Shown here: positions 18,848 to 30,821 of the stretch, piece by piece
Layout: each line of letters starts with the position of its first letter
Position numbering within the stretch: position 1 is the stretch's first letter
Assembly: GCF_900182955.1 (NCBI RefSeq)
Contig: NZ_FXUL01000030.1
Location: 1-64,000 of the forward strand
Length of the DNA: 64,000 nt
Source: Noviherbaspirillum suwonense
GTDB lineage: Bacteria > Pseudomonadota > Gammaproteobacteria > Burkholderiales > Burkholderiaceae_D
Direction: 5' to 3'
Program-made: the position numbers and the translations under genes
The notes under the pieces: generated by a model
What the model was told of the DNA's origin: nothing
The model's database searches: none
What the model saw: only the letters and a program-made list of their open reading frames with translations

Positions 18848-20005
18848 CTAACGCAAACCGAGGCCGCGGGCGATCATGCCGCGCAGGATTTCGCGAGTAC
18901 CGCCGCGCAATGAATAAGTCGGCGCAACCTGGCTGACATAAGTCACGGTGCGGTACAGGTCGGCGTCGATATCCGCTGTAGGGTCGGCGGCGATGGCGGC
19001 CTCGATCACTGCTGGGATCAACTGCTCGAAACCAGTGCCGAGGTCCTTCACCAGCGCGGCTTCCACCACCGGGCTTTCGCCATGCACCAGCATTGCGGTC
19101 ACGCTGATGGACATGTGACGCAGCGTTGCAAGATGCGTGACCAGCTTGCCCACCGTCTGCACGTGTTGTCCAACGTCCGGGCTGCTACGAAGGGAATCGA
19201 TCCAGTGATCGAGCAGGACGATGCTGGAGTACAAGCGCTCCGGGCCGCTGCGCTCGAAGGCCAGTTCGGCTGTGACCTGCGCCCAGCCGCTTCCTTCCTG
19301 CCCGATCAGCGCGTCGTCCGCCAGCATCACATCGTCAAAAAACACTTCGGAAAAATGTGCGTCGCCAGCCAGATCGTAAATTGGGCGCACGGTCACCCCG
19401 GGCAGGGAAAGATCGACAATGAACTGCGACAGGCCGCCATGGCGATCCTCTGGCGTGCCGGAGGTGCGCACCAGCGCAATCATGTAATGACAGTGCGGCG
19501 CATTGGTTGTCCATATCTTGCGGCCGTTAAGTTGCCAGCCATTCCCGGTATCCACCGCGCGCGTGCCGACGCTGGCCAGGTCCGAGCCGGCATTGGGTTC
19601 GCTCATGCCGATGCAGAAAAATGCTTCGGCCGCACAAATCTTCGGCAAGTAGAAATTACGCTGCGCGTCGGTGCCGAACTTCAGGATCAGCGGGCCGCTC
19701 TGGCGATCTGCAATCCAATGCGCCGACACCGGCGCGCCGGCCGCAAGCAGTTCCTCGACCAAGACGAATCGCGAGTACGCATCCATACTGGCGCCGCCAT
19801 AGTCGCGCGGCAAGGTCAGGCCCACCCAGCCGCGCGCGGCCATCTTGCGGCTGAAGTCGGCGGAGTAGCCCATCCATGAACGGGCGCGCACATCCGGCGG
19901 CGCCGGCGGCATCTGGATGGCAAGGAATTCCTTAACCTCCGCCCGGAAAGCCTCGGCCGTCGCGGGCAGGCGCTCCAGCCGGAAATGGTCGAGCAATGCG
20001 CTCAT
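18848..20005 (-). CDS. Acyl-CoA dehydrogenase, large subunit of a heteromeric pair
   Basis: A 385-residue acyl-CoA dehydrogenase. Flavin and substrate regions: FFCIGMSEPNAGSDLASVGT, GWQLNGRKIWTTNAPHCHYM and ELAFERSGPERLYSS. The C-terminal motif is SLRGGTREILRGMIARG instead of YEGTSEIQ, so the canonical catalytic Glu position is Gly. In heteromeric steroid dehydrogenases the active site is shared and one subunit lacks the base, which fits. The ATG at 20005 with GGAG seven bases upstream was preferred over a longer frame. It is the first gene of the leftward train; its promoter carries the 33-bp shared motif. Confidence 0.86.
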   Translation of the reverse strand: MSALLDHFRLERLPATAEAFRAEVKEFLAIQMPPAPPDVRARSWMGYSADFSRKMAARGWVGLTLPRDYGGASMDAYSRFVLVEELLAAGAPVSAHWIADRQSGPLILKFGTDAQRNFYLPKICAAEAFFCIGMSEPNAGSDLASVGTRAVDTGNGWQLNGRKIWTTNAPHCHYMIALVRTSGTPEDRHGGLSQFIVDLSLPGVTVRPIYDLAGDAHFSEVFFDDVMLADDALIGQEGSGWAQVTAELAFERSGPERLYSSIVLLDHWIDSLRSSPDVGQHVQTVGKLVTHLATLRHMSISVTAMLVHGESPVVEAALVKDLGTGFEQLIPAVIEAAIAADPTADIDADLYRTVTYVSQVAPTYSLRGGTREILRGMIARGLGLR

Positions 20006-20076
20006 GAAGTCGCTCCGTTCATCGCTAATTGTGGCCGAGCAGGCAACCTTCTTCAGCGGCGCTGCCATCACGCTGA

Positions 20077-20134
20077 AGAATAGTCGAACGGCGGTGCGAC
20101 AGTCCAATATTAATTTTGCAAATAGCGATACCAA
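20077..20134 (-). promoter_or_regulatory. Promoter with 33-bp shared motif, copy A (dehydrogenase operon)
   Basis: Read toward the dehydrogenase gene, the motif runs TTGGTATCG, then 15 bases, then ATATTGGAC (20134 down to 20102). TTGGAC can act as a -35 box and TATTCT 19 bases further (20082-20077) as the -10. The same motif with the same internal spacing lies before the divergent hydratase gene and the 22-kb CoA-transferase gene. A site for the neighbouring LysR regulator is inferred. Confidence 0.55.
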
Positions 20135-20204
20135 CCAGGTATTGAAGCCAGCGCATGGTCAGGCGCTGGATCTGGCATTGTGCGGCGCAGCGCGCCATAC
20201 ATAG

Positions 20205-20261
20205 TCGATATCGGCCGCCTGCATTTCAATATTGGACAGCCGGCTGCAAGCTGCCTATTCT
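20205..20261 (+). promoter_or_regulatory. Promoter with 33-bp shared motif, copy C (enoyl-CoA hydratase gene)
   Basis: Starts TCGATATCG at 20205 and ends ATATTGGAC at 20237. It has 18 bases from TTGGAC to a TATTCT -10. It lies 67 bp upstream of the hydratase start and is divergent from copy A. Element order and internal spacing are the same as in copies A and B. Confidence 0.55.
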
Positions 20262-20304
20262 TGAGCCCTGACAGGACGATCGAACCAAAAAATAGGAGAC
20301 TTTA

Positions 20305-21099
20305 ATGGCTGGCTTTTTGCTGTACGAACAGGCAGGACATGTCGTCACGCTGACGATGAACGAGCCGGACCGGCGCAACCCGTTGACCGGCAACAACGCG
20401 GTCCAGGACTTCCAGGCCGCGATCGCCCGCATTGAAAACGATGCCAGCGTGCGTGCGGTCATCCTTACCGGCGCAGGCAACGCGTTTTCTTCCGGCGGCA
20501 ATGTGAAGGACATGGAGCGACATGCAGCGGGCGAACTGAACGGCATGCAGATCCGCCAGGAGTACCGACAGGGCATACAGAAATTGCCGCTGGCCTTGTT
20601 CAACCTGGAAGTGCCGGTCATCGCGGCGGTCAATGGCGCCGCGATCGGCGCCGGGCTCGACCTCACGTGCATGTGCGACATCCGCATCGCATCGACGCAT
20701 GCCAAGTTTGCCGAGAGCTTCGTCAAGCTGGGCATCGTGCCGGGCGACGGCGGCGCCTGGCTGCTGCCGCGCGTGATCGGCCTCGCGCGCGCTGCTGAAA
20801 TGACGTTCACAGGCCAGGTCATCGACGCCGAGCAGGCCCTGGCCTGGAACCTGGTGTCGCGCGTGGTGGCGCCCGAAGCGCTGCTGCCGACTGCCATGGC
20901 GCTGGCGGAACAGATCGCCGCCAACCCGCCGCATGCGGTGCGCCTGGCCAAGCGTCTGATGCGGGAAGGTATGCATACACGCCTGGACACGCTGCTGGAA
21001 ATGTCGGCGGCCTATCAGGCGCTGTCCCATCAGACGCCTGACCATGCGGAAGCGGTTGCCGCATTCATCGACAAACGGCCGCCGGTTTTCAAGGGCTGA
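20305..21099 (+). CDS. Enoyl-CoA hydratase/isomerase family protein
   Basis: A 264-residue crotonase-fold enzyme. Oxyanion-hole segments are GAGNAFSSGGNVKDM (about 54-68) and NGAAIGAGLDLTCMCDIRIA (about 110-129). Glu in AKFAESFVKLGIVPGDGG lies at the first catalytic position, while the second catalytic Glu position appears to be Asp/Gly (GIVPGDGGAW). This makes isomerase or another crotonase activity possible. RBS AGGAG is good. It is divergent from the dehydrogenase operon, shares its promoter motif, and is followed by the LysR gene on the same strand. Confidence 0.87.
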   Translation: MAGFLLYEQAGHVVTLTMNEPDRRNPLTGNNAVQDFQAAIARIENDASVRAVILTGAGNAFSSGGNVKDMERHAAGELNGMQIRQEYRQGIQKLPLALFNLEVPVIAAVNGAAIGAGLDLTCMCDIRIASTHAKFAESFVKLGIVPGDGGAWLLPRVIGLARAAEMTFTGQVIDAEQALAWNLVSRVVAPEALLPTAMALAEQIAANPPHAVRLAKRLMREGMHTRLDTLLEMSAAYQALSHQTPDHAEAVAAFIDKRPPVFKG

Positions 21100-21173
21100 T
21101 ACGGCAGGCCCGGGACGGCGATGCAGCAGGGACTAGCGGTTATACTGCCGGCCTACCAGACTGGCACCTCCCC

Positions 21174-22073
21174 ATGGACCTGCGCCGCATCCGTCATTTC
21201 GTTGTCCTTGCCGAAACGCTCAACTTCCGTCGCGCGGCGGAGCGGCTGCACATGGCGCAGCCGCCGTTGTCGGTGTCTATCCAAAAGCTGGAAGCGGAAG
21301 TCGGCACGAAGCTCTTCATACGCTCGCCGAGCGGCGTGAGTCTCACGCCTAGCGGCAAGTCGGCGCTGGCGGAAGCGCGCCGGCTACTTTTCCACGGCAG
21401 CCAGTTTGCGCAGGTCGCCAAAAGCGCGTCCGACGGCACCGGCGGCACCTTGCATGTCGGCTTTGTCGGTTCGACCACCTTCGGCATGCTGCAAAAGCTG
21501 GTGCCGCAGTTTCGCGCCGAGTATCCCGGTGTCGAACTGGTTCTACGCGAGGCAACCTCGGCCCGTATCGTGCAGATGGTGGAGGATGACGGACTCGATG
21601 TCGGCTTGGTGCGCACGCCACTGCTGCACGGCTCCACGGTCACCCTGGTGCCGCTGGAGCAGGACAGGTTCATCGCGGCGCTGCCGCGAAACAGTCGCCT
21701 GGTCAACGTCGGGCAGTTGACGCTGTCCGACCTCGCCACCGAACCCTTCATCATGTACAACCGCACCGAAGCGGCCGGGCTGCATACCGCCGCGATACTA
21801 GCCTGCCAGCAGGCCGGCTTCCTGCCACGCATCGCACAGGAAGCGGTGCAGGTGCAGACCGTGCTGTCGCTGGTCGAAAGCTGCCTCGGCGTGGCGCTGG
21901 TGCCGTCGGTCATGCAGCGCTCCGTCAACGACATGATCGTCTACCGCGCCTTCACCGATTTCGCGCCGCCGGCCGACATCGGCTTGGCCCTGATTTATCA
22001 GCCTGAAATGGAAAGCCCGGCAGCCAAGCGCTTCCGCGCGTTAGCCTGCCGCGAGTATCCGCTGCCGCGTTAA
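21174..22073 (+). CDS. LysR family transcriptional regulator
   Basis: A 299-residue LysR-type regulator. The N-terminal helix-turn-helix is textbook (MDLRRIRHFVVLAETLNFRR, AERLHMAQPPLSVSIQKLE). The effector domain follows (GTLHVGFVGSTTFGMLQKLV; YPGVELVLREATSARIVQMV), similar to CatM/BenM/CbnR-type sensors. It lies between three promoters carrying a common 33-bp motif and is the natural candidate to activate them. The ligand is probably an acyl-CoA or acid intermediate (inferred). No clear Shine-Dalgarno is seen. It converges on the CoA-transferase gene with only 3 bp between stops. Confidence 0.92.
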   Translation: MDLRRIRHFVVLAETLNFRRAAERLHMAQPPLSVSIQKLEAEVGTKLFIRSPSGVSLTPSGKSALAEARRLLFHGSQFAQVAKSASDGTGGTLHVGFVGSTTFGMLQKLVPQFRAEYPGVELVLREATSARIVQMVEDDGLDVGLVRTPLLHGSTVTLVPLEQDRFIAALPRNSRLVNVGQLTLSDLATEPFIMYNRTEAAGLHTAAILACQQAGFLPRIAQEAVQVQTVLSLVESCLGVALVPSVMQRSVNDMIVYRAFTDFAPPADIGLALIYQPEMESPAAKRFRALACREYPLPR

Positions 22074-22076
22074 TCG

Positions 22077-23300
22077 TCAAATAATGCCCTTGGCCCGCAG
22101 CTCTTTCATCTGTCCATCCGACAGGCCGAGACGCTGCCGTAGGATCGCATCGTTATGCTCACCCAATTGGGGCGCTGAACCCTGGTATTGAATCGGCGTC
22201 GCCGACAGGCGAATCGGATTGGCGATGCTGGGCGCGTCCACGCCAGCGCTGTGCGGTAGCGACAGATGCATATTGCGGTGGCGGACCTGCGGATCCTCGA
22301 ACACTTCCTCCATATCGTAAATCGGACCGCAGGGCACGTTTTTCGGCTCCAGCAGCATGATCCATTCGCGCATGGTTTTCGCCAGCATGGCCTCGGCCAG
22401 CAGCGGAATCAGCGTCGCGCGGTTGCGGTTGCGCTGCGAGCCAGTGCTGTACATCGGATCCGTCGCCAGATGCTCGCGGCCGATGGCCTTGCAATAGGCC
22501 GCATATTGAGCGTCATTGCCCACCGCGATGATCAGGTCGCCTTCCTTGCAATGGAATACCTGGTACGGCACCATGTTCGGATGCGCATTGCCGACGCGCT
22601 GCGGTATCTTCCCCGACAAGAAGTAGTTGAGCGCCTGATAGGAGTTGATCGCCACGACGCAGTCCAGCAGCGACATGTCGATGTACTGCCCGGCGCCGCT
22701 GATATGCCTGTGCTCCAGCGCCGCCAGGATGGCGGAGGTCGCGTACATGCCTGTGAGGAGGTCAGTGATGGCCAGGCCGGTTTTCATCGGCGCGCCGCCC
22801 GGTTCGCCGTCGGGCACGCCGGTCAGGCTCATCAGCCCGCCCATGCCCTGGAACACATAGTCGTAACCAGGCAAGGCCGCATACGGGCCATCCTGACCGA
22901 AGCCCGTCACCGAGCAGTAGACCAGACGCGGATTGATGCCTTTGATGTCGTCATAGGCCAGACCGTAACGGGCCAGCGTGCCGACCTTGTAGTTTTCGAC
23001 GAGCACGTCGGCGTCCCTGACCAGCATGCGGATGATGCCCTGGCCTTCCGCCGTGGCCAGATCGACCGTGACCGACTTCTTGCCGCGGTTTGCGCTCAGA
23101 AAATACGATGAGTCACTCGACTCGACGCCATCGGCATCCTTCAGGAATGGCGGGCCCCAGGTGCGGGTGTCGTCGCCAACCTGCGGCCGCTCTATCTTGA
23201 TGACCTCGGCGCCCATATCGGCGAGATTTTGCGTTGCCCATGGGCCGGCAAGGACGCGTGACAAGTCCAAAACCTTGATATGTCCAAGCGCTGTGTTCAT
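22077..23300 (-). CDS. CaiB/BaiF family CoA-transferase
   Basis: A 407-residue class III CoA-transferase. N-terminal signature IKVLDLSRVLAGPWATQNLA, NRGKKSVTVDLATAEGQ, GFGQDGPYAALPGYDYVFQG. The catalytic Asp is in GLAITDLLTGMYATSAIL (about residue 176). The GxPxGE-like loop (GVPDGEPGGAPM) is present. Such enzymes activate an imported acid using the CoA of a pathway end product. RBS CGGAGG. A single-gene unit reading leftward, with promoter copy B of the shared motif upstream. Confidence 0.92.
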   Translation of the reverse strand: MNTALGHIKVLDLSRVLAGPWATQNLADMGAEVIKIERPQVGDDTRTWGPPFLKDADGVESSDSSYFLSANRGKKSVTVDLATAEGQGIIRMLVRDADVLVENYKVGTLARYGLAYDDIKGINPRLVYCSVTGFGQDGPYAALPGYDYVFQGMGGLMSLTGVPDGEPGGAPMKTGLAITDLLTGMYATSAILAALEHRHISGAGQYIDMSLLDCVVAINSYQALNYFLSGKIPQRVGNAHPNMVPYQVFHCKEGDLIIAVGNDAQYAAYCKAIGREHLATDPMYSTGSQRNRNRATLIPLLAEAMLAKTMREWIMLLEPKNVPCGPIYDMEEVFEDPQVRHRNMHLSLPHSAGVDAPSIANPIRLSATPIQYQGSAPQLGEHNDAILRQRLGLSDGQMKELRAKGII

Positions 23301-23327
23301 GTGGCCTCCGAACCTATTTAGGACGAG

Positions 23328-23385
23328 ATGATAGGCAGCGCGGCTCGCCAGCGTCCAATACTTAATCGGCTCGATGCAATATCGA
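23328..23385 (-). promoter_or_regulatory. Promoter with 33-bp shared motif, copy B (CoA-transferase gene)
   Basis: Read toward the gene: TCGATATTG at one end and GTATTGGAC at the other (23385 down to 23353), with the same spacing as copies A and C. TTGGAC is followed after 19 bases by TATCAT. The motif edge is 52 bp from the ATG at 23300. The rest of the 23300-23627 gap holds nothing recognisable. Confidence 0.55.
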
Positions 23386-23626
23386 ACTGCTATCGCACAG
23401 CCCTGCCTGCGCGCGGTATGAAGCGAGTAATCTGGCGCTCTTGGTTACCTAGAACGTCTACGTCGTCTATGTAATCAAGTAGGGCCAAAGACCTACGTCT
23501 TCTTTCCCCTCTGGAGAAACCCGTACATTGGCGATACGCAACGCGGTTTCATTTATGACGTTAGTCGTAATCCGCTCCCCAGACCTCCAGTTCAATCGTT
23601 TGGTATTTCACCCTTTTCAGTAACAA

Positions 23627-24790
23627 TTAGTATGACTTAGGCAAACCAAGCACTTTTTCAGCGATGAAACAAAGGATGAGCTGGGGACTCACAGGTGCCA
23701 GGCGGGGAATCCAAGATTCGCGCAAATATCGTTCGACATGATATTCCTTCGCATAACCCATCCCACCATGCGTAAAAATGGCATTCTCGCACGCGTGAAA
23801 ACAGGCTTCTGCTGCAAGATACTTGGCTGTGTTCGCTTCCGCTGCACAGGGCTTGCCAGCATCGTAAAAAGAGGCGGCCTTGAATACCATCAGATTCGCT
23901 GCTTCCAGTTCCATGTAAGATTTCGCCAGAGGGTGCTGGATGCCCTGGTTCTGTCCGATTGGCCGGTCAAACACAATACGTTCCTTGGCGTACCGTACTG
24001 CTCGCTCAAGCGCTACCCGTCCGAGGCCAATGGCTTCAGATGCGATCAGAATGCGCTCGGGGTTTAGTCCATGCAGAATGTAACTGAACCCCTTGCCTTC
24101 TTCGCCTATACGATCTTCGACTGGAATGCGCAGACCGTCAATGAAGACCTGATTGGAATCAACCGCCTTGCGACCCATTTTTTCGATGTTCCGAACTTCA
24201 ACGAAGCGACGGTCAAGATCAGTGTAAAACAGCGACAAGCCTTCTGTGCCTTTGGCCTCCTCTACCAAGGTAGTGCGCGCAAGAAGAAGCATCTTGTTTG
24301 CTACCTGTGCAGTCGAGATCCAGACCTTTTGCCCCGTCACTACATAATGCTCACCATCTCGCACCGCCCGGGTTTTCAGCCTAAGGGTGTTTAATCCGCT
24401 ATTCGGCTCGGTGACAGCAAAGCAAGCCTTGTCAACTCCCTGGATCAGCGGCGGCAACCAGCGCTTTTTTTGTTCGTCAGTTCCAAATACGACGACCGGA
24501 TGGAGGCCAAAGATATTCATATGAACAGCGGATGCGCCAGACAAGCCGGCACCGGTGGCTGATATGGTCTGCATCATGAGTGCGGCTTCGGTAATACCTA
24601 GCCCCGACCCGCCGTATTCCTCTGGCATGGCGATTCCCAGCCAACCAGCGTCACCAAGCGCTTTGTGAAAATCGTGCGGAAACGTGCCATCAGTGTCTTT
24701 GCGATACCAGTAGTCATCGTCAAACGGCTGGCAGAGCCTCTCCATGGCGTTCTTGATGTGCTCTTGTTCTTCAGTGAATATGAAATCCAT
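23627..24790 (-). CDS. Acyl-CoA dehydrogenase
   Basis: A 387-residue FAD-dependent acyl-CoA dehydrogenase of normal length. Key regions: AMPEEYGGSGLGITEAALMM, FAVTEPNSGLNTLRLKTRAV, YVVTGQKVWISTAQVANKML, ERAVRYAKERIVFDRPIGQN and FTHGGMGYAKEYHVERYLRE. The C-terminus (RLAPVSPQLILCFIAEKVLG) is of the subgroup lacking the YEG motif. It probably makes the alpha-beta double bond in the acyl-CoA formed by the upstream CoA-transferase. RBS GAGGT. Last gene of the operon Bug - CoA-transferase - dehydrogenase. Confidence 0.92.
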   Translation of the reverse strand: MDFIFTEEQEHIKNAMERLCQPFDDDYWYRKDTDGTFPHDFHKALGDAGWLGIAMPEEYGGSGLGITEAALMMQTISATGAGLSGASAVHMNIFGLHPVVVFGTDEQKKRWLPPLIQGVDKACFAVTEPNSGLNTLRLKTRAVRDGEHYVVTGQKVWISTAQVANKMLLLARTTLVEEAKGTEGLSLFYTDLDRRFVEVRNIEKMGRKAVDSNQVFIDGLRIPVEDRIGEEGKGFSYILHGLNPERILIASEAIGLGRVALERAVRYAKERIVFDRPIGQNQGIQHPLAKSYMELEAANLMVFKAASFYDAGKPCAAEANTAKYLAAEACFHACENAIFTHGGMGYAKEYHVERYLRESWIPRLAPVSPQLILCFIAEKVLGLPKSY

Positions 24791-24878
24791 GACTTACCTC
24801 TACTCTAGTGTGCGGCTCGCTTAAACGCCTGATCCATGCTCAACGCTCAAGTTGTGGATAGGTGGGCAACCACCTTGC

Positions 24879-26105
24879 TTAGATCTGAACGGGACTACTA
24901 CTTGCTGTTACATCCTCAGCCATCAGACGTGCAATTTCCGCTGCCGAGTACCCGGCCTCAAGTAACACCTCTACAGAATGCTGCCCGAGGTGCGGTGCGG
25001 GTGCTGCCTTAGGGTCAAGCGGCGTGTTTGACCATGAAGTTGGATTGCCCATCGTGTGCAACTTGCCTTCTGTTGGATGCTCGCTTTCTCGGATCAATCC
25101 CACAGCCCGCAGATGCACATCATCGAGCAAGTCCTGCGGCGAATTCATTGGCATGTTCGGAATGTCGGCCGCGTCCAGCAACGCTTCCCACTCTGACACG
25201 GTACGCTCAAGCATGATCCGCCCTACTTCGGCATAGACCTCATCAATATTTGCAGCCCGATTACCGTGAGACGAGAAGCGTGGGTCAACCGTAAAGCGGT
25301 CGGCCTCGCCAATTGCATCAAAGAAATTACGCCAGTGTTTGTCGTTATAGATCAAAACACACAGGTAGCCGTCCTTGGTCTTGTAGGGTCGCCGGTGCGA
25401 GGTCAGCAGACGTGCATAACCCGCATCACCAGCAGGTGGATCAAACGAGAGCCCCGCCATATGGTCACCAAGGATAAACTGCGCCATGGCCTCAAACATT
25501 GGAACAACCACTGCCTGGCCTTCGCCACTCCTCTCGCGGGCAAAGAGCGCGCCAGTGACTGCATACACAGCATGCAGTCCGGTGACGCGGTCAGCCAGCG
25601 TGACCGGGGCATAGCAAGGGTCTTTCGCCCCATAGCGCTGCATGAGCCACGGCACCCCGGTTGCTCCCTGAATCAGGTCATCATAGGCTGCTCTGGCGGC
25701 ATAAGGGCCGTCCTGTCCAAAGCCACAGCAGCTGATATGGATAATCTTCGCATTGCGTGCCTTGACGGAATCGTAGTCAAGGTTAAGACGTGCCAAGGCT
25801 TGAGGACGAACATTCGTGATCAGTACGTCAGCGTGCTCCACCAAGCGCAGAACGACTTCCTGCGCTTCCGGACGTTTGAGATCCAGAACAATACTTCGCT
25901 TTCCCTGATTCGCGTGAAGGAAGATATGTCCCATACCCGGGTTTCGCATCGGCCCAACATGACGCATGTTGTCGCCCTCGGGGGTTTCAATCTTTGTCAC
26001 CTCGGCGCCCATGGAAGCCAGGATCTGGGTCGCATACGGACCCATGATCACGGAAGTCATATCGAGGATTTTAATGCCCGCGAGCGGGCCTGAGCGTTGT
26101 TTCAT
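24879..26105 (-). CDS. CaiB/BaiF family CoA-transferase
   Basis: A 408-residue class III CoA-transferase. IKILDMTSVIMGPYATQILA at the N-terminus, NQGKRSIVLDLKRPEAQ, CCGFGQDGPYAARAAYDDLI. The catalytic Asp is in VTLADRVTGLHAVYAVTGAL (about residue 175). It follows the Bug gene by only 4 bp and precedes the dehydrogenase by 88 bp, so import, activation and first oxidation of one acid are encoded together. It is similar in layout to the CoA-transferase at 15.6 kb. Confidence 0.92.
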   Translation of the reverse strand: MKQRSGPLAGIKILDMTSVIMGPYATQILASMGAEVTKIETPEGDNMRHVGPMRNPGMGHIFLHANQGKRSIVLDLKRPEAQEVVLRLVEHADVLITNVRPQALARLNLDYDSVKARNAKIIHISCCGFGQDGPYAARAAYDDLIQGATGVPWLMQRYGAKDPCYAPVTLADRVTGLHAVYAVTGALFARERSGEGQAVVVPMFEAMAQFILGDHMAGLSFDPPAGDAGYARLLTSHRRPYKTKDGYLCVLIYNDKHWRNFFDAIGEADRFTVDPRFSSHGNRAANIDEVYAEVGRIMLERTVSEWEALLDAADIPNMPMNSPQDLLDDVHLRAVGLIRESEHPTEGKLHTMGNPTSWSNTPLDPKAAPAPHLGQHSVEVLLEAGYSAAEIARLMAEDVTASSSPVQI

Positions 26106-26109
26106 GTCT

Positions 26110-27069
26110 TTATTCCGGTTGAATGCCGGCTTGCTTAATAAGAGTGCGCCAGTGAACTAGCTGATGTTCCACATAGTTCGCAAATTCCTTGGTGCTTGCA
26201 GACGGTCCTACCTGAAAGCCTTGCTGCAAAAGCTGTTCCTGAACCTCCTTATCTGCCAACACCGCAAGAATCTCCGTGTTGAGCTGGTCGACGATCGGCT
26301 TAGGCACGTTTGCAGGCCCGAAAATTCCATTCCAGGAAGTCAGATCGAATCCGGTAATTGTCTGGGCTACCGGAGGAACGTCCGGCAACAGATTTGAAGG
26401 GGCCTTCGTCGTGATGGCGAGCGTTTTCACCTTATTAGCCTTAATCATTGCCATGCCTGAGCCAAGATCAACGACATAGAAGTCAATCTGTCCACCAATG
26501 AGATCGGTCATTGCTTGCGGACTGGACTTATACGGAACGCCAAGCAAATCAATACCAGCTAAGCGTTTGATGGTCTCAGAGGCAACGAGCGATGTGCTGT
26601 TTGGCGTACCATAGGTCAGTCTCCCCGGATTCGCCTTGGCATAGTCGACGAATTCCTTCATGTTCTTAACAGGAAGCTTATTGTTTACGACGACAGCAAA
26701 AGGCAGTTCACCAACCAGCGTGATTGGCGTGAACCCTTTAACGGGATCATAGCTCAGCTGTTTGAAAAGGCTTGGATTCGCGGAATGGCCGGTGTTGGTG
26801 GTCATAAGGAGCGTGTAACCATCCGGCTTCGCATTGGCCACAAAATTGGTCGCAATTTGCGCGCTGGCACCCGGCTTGTTGTCAACAATGACAGTTTGGT
26901 TGAATCGCTCCCCTAATTTTTTCGCCACCACCCGGGCTACGGCATCTGTACCGCTGCCTGCTGCAAAGGGAACAACTAACGAGACAGGCCGTGACGGATA
27001 AGACTGCGCGGCGGCGGGAGCACTTGCAACCGCAAATATGGCGATAAGCATCAAACAAATCAGCTTCAT
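26110..27069 (-). CDS. Bug family (TctC-like) tripartite tricarboxylate transporter binding protein
   Basis: A 319-residue receptor with a short signal peptide (MKLICLMLIAIFAVASAPAA, cleavage near AAAQ). Blocks: RPVSLVVPFAAGSGTDAVAR, DNKPGASAQIATNFVANA, LTYGTPNSTSLVASETIKRL and GVPYKSSPQAMTDLIGGQ. RBS CGGAGA. First gene of its operon. TctA and TctB partners are not nearby. The 27070-27190 upstream stretch shows no recognised operator. Confidence 0.91.
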   Translation of the reverse strand: MKLICLMLIAIFAVASAPAAAQSYPSRPVSLVVPFAAGSGTDAVARVVAKKLGERFNQTVIVDNKPGASAQIATNFVANAKPDGYTLLMTTNTGHSANPSLFKQLSYDPVKGFTPITLVGELPFAVVVNNKLPVKNMKEFVDYAKANPGRLTYGTPNSTSLVASETIKRLAGIDLLGVPYKSSPQAMTDLIGGQIDFYVVDLGSGMAMIKANKVKTLAITTKAPSNLLPDVPPVAQTITGFDLTSWNGIFGPANVPKPIVDQLNTEILAVLADKEVQEQLLQQGFQVGPSASTKEFANYVEHQLVHWRTLIKQAGIQPE

Positions 27070-27192
27070 AGTATCTCCGATAGTTTCAATTTGACCCTGT
27101 AGTCCGGGACGATCATGGCATCATTGACTAGAGAGTCATTCATGTCAAATCGTTAAAACCACTTGCACGATAGCGTTCTGGCGTCTTATTTA

Positions 27193-28581
27193 CTGTCTTC
27201 TGTGTAAGACCCAGCGATTTCTGTCCAAGCAAGTGGGGCCACCTCTGTGGTTCGATGCACTGGTCAGAGGAAGAACCTTCCGGCATTTCATTGGGCGACG
27301 CAAGGCTGGACCGACGTAAAAGTAAATTGTTGGCAAGCATGTTGAACCGTCCGCATGCCAGCATTCCGCAGGCATGCGGCGGGGCAACCGAAATCAAGGC
27401 GGCGTATCGGCTGATCAAACCCGAGGACGTGAACTGTCGTTTTCTAATGGCGCCGCATTGGGACAAAGCCCTGCAGCGCATGGCTGGCGCATCCGTTGTC
27501 TTGTGCATTTAAGATACGACGGAGCTGAAGTTCAATGGACGCCAGATGCAAGGATTGGGACGCCTGAGTTACGACGCCCAGCGGGGCATGTATGCGCATA
27601 TGACGTATGCGGTCACGCCGCATCGGGTGCCGTTGGGCGTGCTCGATTGCTCGATGTGAACCCGTCAACCAGAGGTGAGGCGGCCATTCCTGAAAGTACC
27701 CGCTGGATCGACGGTTACGAACGCATTGCCAAGATGGCAGCACAGTTGCCGGCCACTCGCTTGGTATTAGTGGCCGACCGGGAAGTCGATTTCGGTGCGT
27801 TGCTGGGACGGGCGCAGACGGTGAACTATCCTGCTGATCTGTTAATACGCGCGCGGTACGACCGCAAGCTGCAAGCAGATGACACACAGCTGTTTGCAGC
27901 GTTATCGCAGGCCCCCGCGTTAGGCGAGGTCGTCTCTGCCCTCACGCCAGGGCGTGGCAAGAAAGCCCGGGCGGTAACGCAGTCGGTGTCGGTTGTACCC
28001 AGCGTAATGCGGTTGCCAAGCAATCAGACAACGACCCTGACGGTCGTCCAGGCGATGGAACACCATTCGCCACAAGGCGACAAGCCGGTGCTGGCACTTG
28101 CTGACGAATCGGTCGGTCAACGATCTGGCACAGGCAAGTGAGTTAATCGATTGGTACCGTTGCCGATGGGAAGTAGAACTGTACTTCCATACTGTTAAGA
28201 CGGGCTGCCTGGTCGAGCAACTGCAATTCGAGACGATAGAGCCGGTTGAACGCGCGTTGGCGCGGTACCTAATGGTGGCATGGCGCATTCATTATTTAAT
28301 GCGACTGGGCCGGGATCACCCTGGCCTGGATTGTGAAATTGTGTTCGATACCGACGAATGGAAAGCTGTTTATCTGTTAGAGAAAAAGAAACTGCCTGTT
28401 ATCCCTTACGCTGAATGAAGTCATGCGCATGGTCGGCGCGACCGGCGGATTTATGGGACGCAACGTCGACGGCCAACCGGGCGCGAAAGCCATCTAGAGC
28501 CGAATGCAAGCCCTGCACTTCTTTGTCGAGGGAATGCGCGCTGCGTTCGAAATGGAAGCAGGTAAAAATGATGGGTAAGGA
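27193..28581 (+). pseudogene. IS4-family (IS50/Tn5-like group) element, degenerate transposase
   Basis: The coding part starts at 27255 (LGDARLDRRKSKLLASMLNR, ASIPQACGGATEIKAAYRLI) and matches Tn5-like transposases. It is broken by a stop at 27510 (CAA to TAA before DTTELKFNG), a TGA at 27657 replacing Trp, at least two frame changes before 28142, and a TAG at 28495. The C-terminal part ELIDWYRCRWEVELYFHTVK holds the catalytic Glu region. A possible left end CTGTCTTCTGTGTAAG lies at 27193, similar at its tip to Tn5 ends. It is certainly inactive and lies between two unrelated operons. Confidence 0.85.
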
Positions 28582-28587
28582 GATGCC

Positions 28588-29391
28588 TTATGTGGCTCGA
28601 AGCCCCAACGCCTCGGACATCTCCTTGGCACTAACTATGAGCAGCTCGCCATATTCGGAAACACGTCCAGCGTTTAGCCGTGCGCTTGGCCCGAAGACAG
28701 CTAGCGACCCAGCGACGCGTCCAGTTGTATTGAAAAATGGCGCAGCAATTGCAGTCGCGCCCTGCAGCAATTCATCATGACTGGTCGCATAACCACGTTG
28801 CCGGATGCGCGCCAATTCTTCCGTGTAATTGGCCAAATTCACACTGGTGTCGTGTGTGTATTCCTGCATCTTCATTGCCGATACATCAGCATGCGCCAAA
28901 ATTGCGCGACCGCTGGCCCCCACCATAATGCGCTCGCGATAACCGACGCCGCGTTTAAAACTGAGTGGCTGGGGACTAGGAAGTTCGGCTACGCAAAGTC
29001 GGTACATACCTTGCAGTTCGAATACAGCCACTGTCTCCCCAGTCTGCTCCCACAGATTTCGCAGAATTGGCCTTGCCAGTTCAGCTATGTCCAGCCCGGA
29101 TGTCCAGACATGCGCTAGGTGAGCCACCGACGGGCCTAGCCGGAACTGCTGTGGCTCCCCTTGCGCAGTCAGAAAGCCGCTGCGTTCGAGGGTGTAAAGC
29201 AGGCGGTACAAAGTTGGACGGCTCAAATCCACGCGCTTTAGCAACTCTGCCACCGTCAAGTCAGATCTGTCCGCGGTAAAGGCCATCAGGATGTCCAGTG
29301 CGCGCTCCACGGCCCGCACGCTGTCTCCACTCTTCTCGGATTGCCCAACGTCCTTCTGTTCTTCTTTTGTTTGCGCCCGCTGGAGTTTCAT
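28588..29391 (-). CDS. IclR family transcriptional regulator
   Basis: A 267-residue IclR-type regulator. The winged HTH is at about 27-85 (RALDILMAFTADRSDLTVAE; LKRVDLSRPTLYRLLYTLER) and the effector domain at about 100-260 (GVGYRERIMVGASGRAILAH; GYATSHDELLQGATAIAAPF). The internal ATG at 29391, with AGGA before it, is preferred over upstream starts. It is divergent from the Rieske oxygenase operon, which it probably controls in response to the aromatic substrate. The family often acts as activator of aromatic catabolism. Confidence 0.88.
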   Translation of the reverse strand: MKLQRAQTKEEQKDVGQSEKSGDSVRAVERALDILMAFTADRSDLTVAELLKRVDLSRPTLYRLLYTLERSGFLTAQGEPQQFRLGPSVAHLAHVWTSGLDIAELARPILRNLWEQTGETVAVFELQGMYRLCVAELPSPQPLSFKRGVGYRERIMVGASGRAILAHADVSAMKMQEYTHDTSVNLANYTEELARIRQRGYATSHDELLQGATAIAAPFFNTTGRVAGSLAVFGPSARLNAGRVSEYGELLIVSAKEMSEALGLRAT

Positions 29392-29457
29392 AAAACCATT
29401 CCTTTTCATCGAAGCGGCAAGCCTACTATGCGCTTGCATGACGAACCAGCTTTTCAA

Positions 29458-29485
29458 TTGACACGTCACCGGGCGTTCGTATAAT
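29458..29485 (+). promoter_or_regulatory. Consensus sigma-70 promoter of the Rieske oxygenase operon
   Basis: Perfect -35 TTGACA (29458-29463) and perfect -10 TATAAT (29480-29485) with a 16-base spacer. It points toward the oxygenase gene, whose start is 65 bp from the -10. Two inverted repeats follow: ATAAT-N7-ATTAT overlapping the -10 (29481-29497) and AGGCGG-ACAA-CCGCCT (29502-29517). They are candidates for IclR binding. Confidence 0.7.
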
Positions 29486-29501
29486 GGACTATATTATCAT
29501 C

Positions 29502-29517
29502 AGGCGGACAACCGCCT
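29502..29517. promoter_or_regulatory. Perfect inverted repeat in the oxygenase leader
   Basis: AGGCGG and CCGCCT around ACAA, just downstream of the predicted transcription start. It could be an IclR operator or an RNA hairpin in the leader. Sequence alone does not decide. Confidence 0.4.
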
Positions 29518-29549
29518 TCCCCTACAATCGTTATCAGGAGACTGCGGTT

Positions 29550-30821
29550 ATGAATAAAGAAATGTCTGAAATCCTCGTACGCACCGGTTCAGGAACCAAA
29601 ATGGGCAATCTGATGCGCCGTTACTGGGTGCCGGTGCTGCTGTCAAATGAAATCGCGGAAGCGGACGGTCCTCAGGTGCGCGTCCAAATCTTGGGAGAAA
29701 AGCTGCTCGCTTTCCGTGATTCCGAGGGTCGTCCCGGTTTGATTGACGAATTTTGCTCGCACCGTGGCGTGTCCCTTTACTTCGGCCGCAATGAAGAAAA
29801 TGGCATCCGTTGTTCTTATCACGGCCTGAAATTCGATCGCAACGGCAAGTGCGTGGAAGTGCCATCGGCGCCGCAGACGTGCGCACGGATGAACATTAAG
29901 TCCTATCCATGCATCGAACGTGCCGGCATGCTTTGGGCTTATATGGGACCGGAAGGCAAGATGCCGGCACCGCCAGAACTGGAATGGTGCACTTTGCCCG
30001 ATAGCCATGTTTTTGTCTCCAAGCGCTTGCAAGAGTGCAATTACCTTCAGGCGATGGAGGGCGGCATTGATACTGCCCATGTCTCCTATGTTCACAAGTA
30101 CGAAGTAGATGAAGATCCGATGCATAAAGGAACCAAGGCCCTCGATTACATCAAGGCTGACGGCAATGTGATCTTCGATATTGAACGCACCGATATCGGC
30201 ATGACACTTTTCGGTCGCCGCAACGGCGAGGCGGATTCCTATTATTGGCGCATCACGCAGTTCCTTTTCCCATGGTTCACTCTGATCCCGCCTTTTGGCG
30301 AGCACTCCCTGGCAGGCCACGTCTGGGTGCCGATCGACGATCACAATTGCTGGGCCTGGAGTATTAACTTCCATCCTGACAAGCCCTTGTCCGCCGAAGA
30401 ACGGTGCGACCTCGAAGCGGGTAAAGGCATCCACTGCGAATATGAGCCGGGCACATTCAGGCCCAAGGCAAACAAGGATAACGACTACCTGATCGACCGC
30501 GTCGCTCAGAGGGAAAAACGCGCCTACAGCGGCGTGTTTGGATTTGCAATCCAGGATGCGTCGCTGCAGGAAAGCATGGGACCAATCCAGAACCATGAAG
30601 CCGAGCGCCTTTTGCCGACTGACAAGGCCATCGTGATGGCCCGCCGCATGCTGCATGAAGCAGCCGTAAATCTAGAACTGGGGATTGAGCCGCCGGCCCT
30701 GAACTCTTCGGCGCAGCATGTACGTGCCGCTGGCGTCTTGCTGGATCGAAATATAAGTCCTGTGCAGTGGGGGGAGCAGCATCTGACCGACAGCACGAAG
30801 CAACCGGTTTTTTCCGTGTAA
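29550..30821 (+). CDS. Rieske non-heme iron oxygenase, alpha subunit (phthalate 4,5-dioxygenase-like)
   Basis: A 423-residue terminal oxygenase of the single-subunit (phthalate/vanillate) type. The Rieske [2Fe-2S] ligands are Cys69, His71, Cys88 and His91 (CSHRG, CSYHG). Mononuclear iron ligands Asp174-x2-His177-x4-His182 lie in GGIDTAHVSYVHK. It would hydroxylate or O-demethylate an aromatic acid using electrons from an FNR-type reductase. The start at 29550 follows CAGGAG. Its operon continues with a Bug receptor, an SDR and the first 50 codons of a matching reductase that is cut off. Confidence 0.92.
   Translation: MNKEMSEILVRTGSGTKMGNLMRRYWVPVLLSNEIAEADGPQVRVQILGEKLLAFRDSEGRPGLIDEFCSHRGVSLYFGRNEENGIRCSYHGLKFDRNGKCVEVPSAPQTCARMNIKSYPCIERAGMLWAYMGPEGKMPAPPELEWCTLPDSHVFVSKRLQECNYLQAMEGGIDTAHVSYVHKYEVDEDPMHKGTKALDYIKADGNVIFDIERTDIGMTLFGRRNGEADSYYWRITQFLFPWFTLIPPFGEHSLAGHVWVPIDDHNCWAWSINFHPDKPLSAEERCDLEAGKGIHCEYEPGTFRPKANKDNDYLIDRVAQREKRAYSGVFGFAIQDASLQESMGPIQNHEAERLLPTDKAIVMARRMLHEAAVNLELGIEPPALNSSAQHVRAAGVLLDRNISPVQWGEQHLTDSTKQPVFSV

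Follow-up and report, generated by a model that had tools for sequence, protein, structure and literature searches.

A predicted LysR-type operator-promoter at three promoters around a regulator gene in an acyl-CoA dehydrogenase, CaiB and TctC gene cluster

Introduction

The window, which is the whole stretch of DNA that was analysed, comprises 64,000 nucleotides of contig NZ_FXUL01000030.1 from Noviherbaspirillum suwonense. A 33-bp composite motif recurs in three promoter regions around a LysR-type regulator gene in this window, and the locus raises the question of which protein, if any, the copies serve. The preferred reading, with a probability of about 0.88, is that each copy would serve the LysR-type regulator encoded at 21174-22073 as its operator-promoter, as judged from sequence comparison.

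Three copies of the motif and the genes they face

A pattern search of the whole window finds GTCCAATAYT-N16-ATAYCRA exactly at 20102-20134 (+), 20205-20237 (-), and 23353-23385 (+), as the original prediction had placed it, while 100 shuffles of the window give 0 matches. The prediction proposed a search for the motif elsewhere in the genome, and the 6,451,979 bases on 78 contigs hold these three exact copies alone. Three matches with 2 mismatches occur genome-wide, and a reversed-pattern control at the same stringency gives one. The window sites face the acyl-CoA dehydrogenase operon, the enoyl-CoA hydratase-LysR operon, and the CaiB CoA-transferase gene. A domain search of the cluster identifies acyl-CoA dehydrogenase, ECH_1, HTH_1 with LysR_substrate, CoA_transf_3, and TctC domains. 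The features are as follows.

18848-20005, minus strand: acyl-CoA dehydrogenase gene, heading an operon that also contains another acyl-CoA dehydrogenase gene together with TctC and CaiB
20077-20082, minus strand: putative -10 TATTCT of the acyl-CoA dehydrogenase promoter, spacer 19
20102-20111, minus strand: putative activation site (ABS) fused to the -35 of the same promoter, AATATTGGAC, with -35 TTGGAC at 20102-20107
20128-20142, minus strand: predicted recognition site (RBS) of the same promoter, plus-strand ATAC-CAACCAG-GTAT, a perfect ATAC-N7-GTAT with T-N11-A; the whole operator at 20102-20144 scores 47.2 bits with a 43-bp matrix
20197-20211, plus strand: predicted recognition site of the enoyl-CoA hydratase promoter, ATAC-ATAGTCG-ATAT with T-N11-A; operator 35.7 bits
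20228-20237, plus strand: putative activation site and -35 of the hydratase promoter, AATATTGGAC
20256-20261, plus strand: putative -10 TATTCT of the hydratase promoter, spacer 18
20305-21099, plus strand: enoyl-CoA hydratase/isomerase (crotonase) gene, ECH_1 domain
21174-22073, plus strand: LysR-type regulator gene, the proposed activator, 74 bp 3' of the hydratase gene
22077-23300, minus strand: CaiB/BaiF (family III) CoA-transferase gene, CoA_transf_3 domain
23328-23333, minus strand: putative -10 TATCAT of the CaiB promoter, spacer 19
23353-23362, minus strand: putative activation site and -35 of the CaiB promoter, AGTATTGGAC
23379-23393, minus strand: predicted recognition site of the CaiB promoter, plus-strand ATAT-CGAACTG-CTAT, outer half imperfect, T-N11-A kept; operator 34.8 bits

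The ATG at 20003-20005 was picked as the start of the acyl-CoA dehydrogenase gene; the open reading frame list has a TTG at 20134. The 74 bp that separate the hydratase gene from lysR contain no predicted terminator, and lysR is therefore probably part of the hydratase operon. The -35/-10 pairs given earlier are right as sequence: TTGGAC/TATTCT with a spacer of 19 (20107 to 20077, -), TTGGAC/TATTCT with a spacer of 18 (20232 to 20261, +), and TTGGAC/TATCAT with a spacer of 19 (23358 to 23328, -). As bare core promoters, the three are unremarkable. A plain sigma-70 scan of 19900-23700 reports only two promoter-like sites (shuffles 1.4 ± 1.2), both of them motif promoters with the -35 read one base later, and it misses the first motif promoter.

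Structure of the operator

In promoter orientation, the aligned sites consist of GATAY-N7-RTATY, an A-rich stretch, RATATTRGAC, and TANNNT. To judge by its sequence, ATA(T/C)C(G/A)A is one half, the inner one, of a recognition site of the canonical LysR type, ATAC-N7-GTAT (T-N11-A). The outer half ATAY, which lay outside the search pattern, occurs at one offset in 72/83 promoter sites, a set from which 7 of 90 sites had been dropped by eye beforehand and which comprises about 50 effectively different sites at 80% identity. At other offsets it occurs in at most 5/83, except at +3, which is the searched inner half. T-N11-A is present in 83/83 sites and ATAY-N7-RTAT in 71/83, and TANNNT follows TTRGAC with a spacer of 18 in 54/83 and of 19 in 16/83. 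T-N11-A is kept in all three copies in the window, although the outer half of the third is imperfect.

The downstream (A/G)ATATT(G/A)GAC is a putative activation site fused to the -35 box. The dyad lies 32-42 bp upstream of the -35. With transcription starts inferred at 7 bp after the -10 boxes, its centres at 20135, 20204, and 23386 would correspond to about -65, -64, and -65. LysR tetramers are described in PMC8407307 and PMC4834489 as combining a T-N11-A site near -65 with an activation site at -35; given the inferred starts, the three window promoters have both. The extent of the motif in the original prediction is correct as far as it goes, but conservation reaches beyond it, to another ATAY half-site that lies 11 bp farther out. 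What had been taken for the upstream half-site of an activator-type promoter is in fact one half, the inner, of a complete dyad, while the LysR-activated promoter anatomy itself is borne out by the T-N11-A near -65, the activation site on the -35, and the conserved -10.

The presence of TTGGAC and TATTCT at conserved spacing would also be in line with a core promoter of an unusual sigma factor and nothing more, without an operator. This is scarcely credible, as the upstream dyad is as well conserved as the -35 and the genome has exact copies at this one locus only. The G/A difference at the -35 (TTGGAC or TTAGAC) was matched against LysR residues as well. The differences follow clades and three loci mix both letters, and therefore no residue is proposed to set specificity.

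Conservation with the LysR clade

A LysR protein query gave at least 80 loci from named genomes, and a query of 195 relatives at E ≤ 1e-60 gave 7 further genomes. The 3 same-genus genomes listed have no LysR homologue at E ≤ 1e-60. Among the matches listed, the pattern with up to 3 mismatches has 89 matches in 64/88 LysR loci, which include the window copy and one duplicate; the reversed pattern has 0. The 43-bp matrix at 20 bits or more finds a site in 68/80 named LysR loci among the matches listed and 0 in the reversed sequence, a count that is not independent since the matrix was trained on sites from the same loci. The motif is thus found near related LysR genes, where the original prediction had suggested looking for it. 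By identity of the LysR, again among the matches listed, a site is present in 15/17 loci at about 60% or more, 35/36 at 50-59%, 12/19 at 45-49%, and 6/8 below 45%. The 12/80 listed loci that have no site of 20 bits or more mostly encode LysRs less than 50% identical, save L018 and L065 of the top identity class. By eye, both have a perfect dyad and GTCCAATA(T/C)T, the gap between them being one base longer; the fixed spacing claimed earlier holds for the three window copies but not for these operators.

In a crude test, the sites face the start of a homologous gene in 74/86 cases and do not in 12/86. A blind 42-bp consensus, which each window site misses by one letter, was searched in 399 genomes of the order and gave 10 exact places in 7 genomes, with 0 for the reversed control. 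Homologues of the dehydrogenase, hydratase, CaiB, TctC, or LysR adjoin 8/10 of these places; of the other two, L137 lies 4 kb away from one of these eight places, and no such homologue is seen at L138. The model of LysR as an activator is well supported by sequence, the only kind of evidence used here: the sites track the LysR clade across Burkholderiales and mostly face neighbouring catabolic genes.

Another regulator of the same genes, be it a different LysR paralogue or a protein of some unrelated kind, may instead bind the sites. The same genome carries a second LysR on contig C7, 37% identical to the window LysR by blastp and located behind a related operator of 28.0 bits. The motif also stands beside a more distant LysR at L110 and has no LysR within the 3 kb examined at L137 and L138. 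Against this, the sites accompany this LysR gene in different gene orders, with lysR either downstream of the hydratase gene or divergent from CaiB, in which case the site lies about 12 bp before the LysR start. ATAC-N7-GTAT is moreover a LysR-type site, and control by another regulator is considered unlikely.

The short motif was also searched in 294 family genomes. With at most 1 mismatch it occurs at 40 places in 34 genomes, of which 37 places lie outside the source genome, and the reversed pattern at about 12. Among 29 of these loci inspected (L095-L123), the extended site is present within 1 mismatch in 5, and a LysR or cluster homologue within 3 kb in 3. Most short-motif matches are chance and were therefore not counted as support.

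The regulator and described LysR systems

The regulator belongs to the LysR family, with PF00126 (HTH_1) at 74.7 bits and PF03466 (LysR_substrate) at 138.1 bits, both above cut-off. The recognition helix QPPLS-S(I) is near-invariant among the 63 LysRs compared. Its DNA-binding domain can be aligned with those of solved LysR-type structures, BenM and 5xxp among them. Structure matches of the regulator comprise BenM/CatM (3m1e/4ihs/4iht, 2h98) and chains labelled 'LysR-type regulatory protein', namely 5xxp (DNA-binding domain) and the full-length 1ixc/1iz1/7d98. The latter four entries, which we take to be CbnR, align over residues 1-74, including the QPP of the recognition helix. CbnR controls chlorocatechol genes.

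The best NCBIfam model is AlsR (NF045775), at 231 bits, below the curated cut-off of 430; acetoin genes are absent from the ten proteins scanned. The best full-length sequence match is the LysR-type 7w06 (139 bits), and the sensor domain of the LysR-type RipR matches at 84 bits; both are far from orthologous. RipR responds to itaconic acid (PMC9637912), and CoA-transferases also occur in the gene set here, a likeness to that context. By analogy, the inducer could perhaps be a similar small dicarboxylate, which is a guess.

ThnR, the regulator of tetralin-degradation genes (PMC4834489), is the nearest described functional analogue. Both systems have several target promoters, including a close divergent pair, and at each promoter a primary T-N11-A site is joined by a secondary one. 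ThnR activates its own gene from one target promoter, and the same arrangement is proposed here. ThnR needs the co-activator ThnY, and its divergent promoters cooperate via a DNA loop; the substrate and genes differ. For BenM/CatM of Acinetobacter, PMC6628147 gives a Site 1 of ATAC-N7-GTAT with T-N11-A, as here; the DNA-binding domains are related. A further site overlaps the -35, which is TTGAAC there and TTGGAC here. BenM/CatM have sites 1, 2, and 3 at aromatic-compound genes, whereas only two conserved blocks are present here. The literature search found no described operator for the LysR clade linked to CaiB/acyl-CoA dehydrogenase/TctC clusters, and nothing relevant for TATTGGAC with LysR.

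Gene order and the relocated CaiB gene

The Noviherbaspirillum loci L007-L009 have the order TctC-dehydrogenase-dehydrogenase-CaiB, the operator pair, and hydratase-LysR. In the window, a CaiB gene lies past lysR with an operator of its own, and in the CaiB tree this protein groups with L017, apart from Noviherbaspirillum (support 0.992). Many Cupriavidus have a single site just before lysR that faces a divergent CaiB gene, which is the classical LysR layout.

An operator at a relocated gene whose product groups outside the genus would suit recent duplications of one promoter, in which case the three copies would say little on regulation. This is very improbable: outside the conserved columns, the three copies share little, and flanks alignable well above background were looked for among them and not seen. 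Each copy has its best flank match in another genome, with 25-26/55 columns against a background of 18.0 ± 5.4, and the sites are kept in place in distant genomes. Flank similarity was also considered as evidence for a joint move of the third operator and CaiB, its best match being L017 (26/55). The second operator best-matches L017 too, flank similarity therefore does not decide the matter, and only the CaiB tree stands.

Proposed mechanism

In the operator-promoter reading, a LysR tetramer would bind with one dimer to ATAC-N7-GTAT, whose centre lies near -65 relative to the inferred start, and with the other to (A/G)ATATT(G/A)GAC, which overlaps the -35 box. With inducer bound, LysR would help RNA polymerase to use a weak promoter (TTGGAC, 18-19 bp spacer, TATTCT or TATCAT). 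Three transcripts would be switched on together: the acyl-CoA dehydrogenase-TctC-CaiB operon, the hydratase-lysR operon, and the relocated CaiB gene. With lysR in the hydratase operon, LysR would therefore activate its own synthesis. This would be a conserved but textbook switch for a small breakdown pathway and no new kind of regulation.

A more far-reaching version is possible but doubtful. The divergent operators would form one cooperative unit, in which LysR tetramers on matching helix faces couple both promoters, and lysR within one of the coupled operons would make the switch self-amplifying. The activation site, non-conserved in published descriptions, would here be a fixed 10-bp sequence that also serves as the -35; operator and promoter strength would then evolve in concert and be carried along with the gene. 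Helical phasing of the divergent pair is a weak lead: 19 divergent operator pairs cluster weakly in phase (p = 0.016 on 12 distinct distances, relatedness uncorrected), and the window pair (136 bp), L020, L023, and L131 fall away from the main phase cluster.

The analysis provides a ready operator model for the LysR clade linked to CaiB/acyl-CoA dehydrogenase/TctC clusters. With it, regulons become predictable, and reporter fusions could be used to find the substrate.

Related block and further sites

Contig C7 has the order TctC-CaiB-dehydrogenase-hydratase-like-LysR behind its operator. The TctC-CaiB-acyl-CoA dehydrogenase block at window 23582-27035 is a 79% DNA copy (about 3.46 kb) of the C7 block (L139:5014-8462), without the LysR and hydratase-like genes that come next on C7. 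By eye, the counterpart of the C7 operator is degenerate at window 27070-27200, upstream of the TctC gene, and a transposase-like, apparently broken set of open reading frames begins near 27255.

Strong operators without a LysR within the 3 kb examined are present at L137:1501-1543 (40.3 bits) and L138:1500-1542 (44.3 bits); the genes after them resemble, by eye, a TRAP solute-binding protein and an enolase-superfamily enzyme. At L109:1501-1543, an operator of 49.5 bits precedes a gene that by eye resembles a branched-chain ABC solute-binding protein. L109 is on the same contig as L089, about 10 kb apart (a '28 kb-scale neighbour'), and its operator suggests a wider regulon in that genome. Window 28588-30821 contains, by eye, a Rieske-type oxygenase with a divergent IclR-like regulator.
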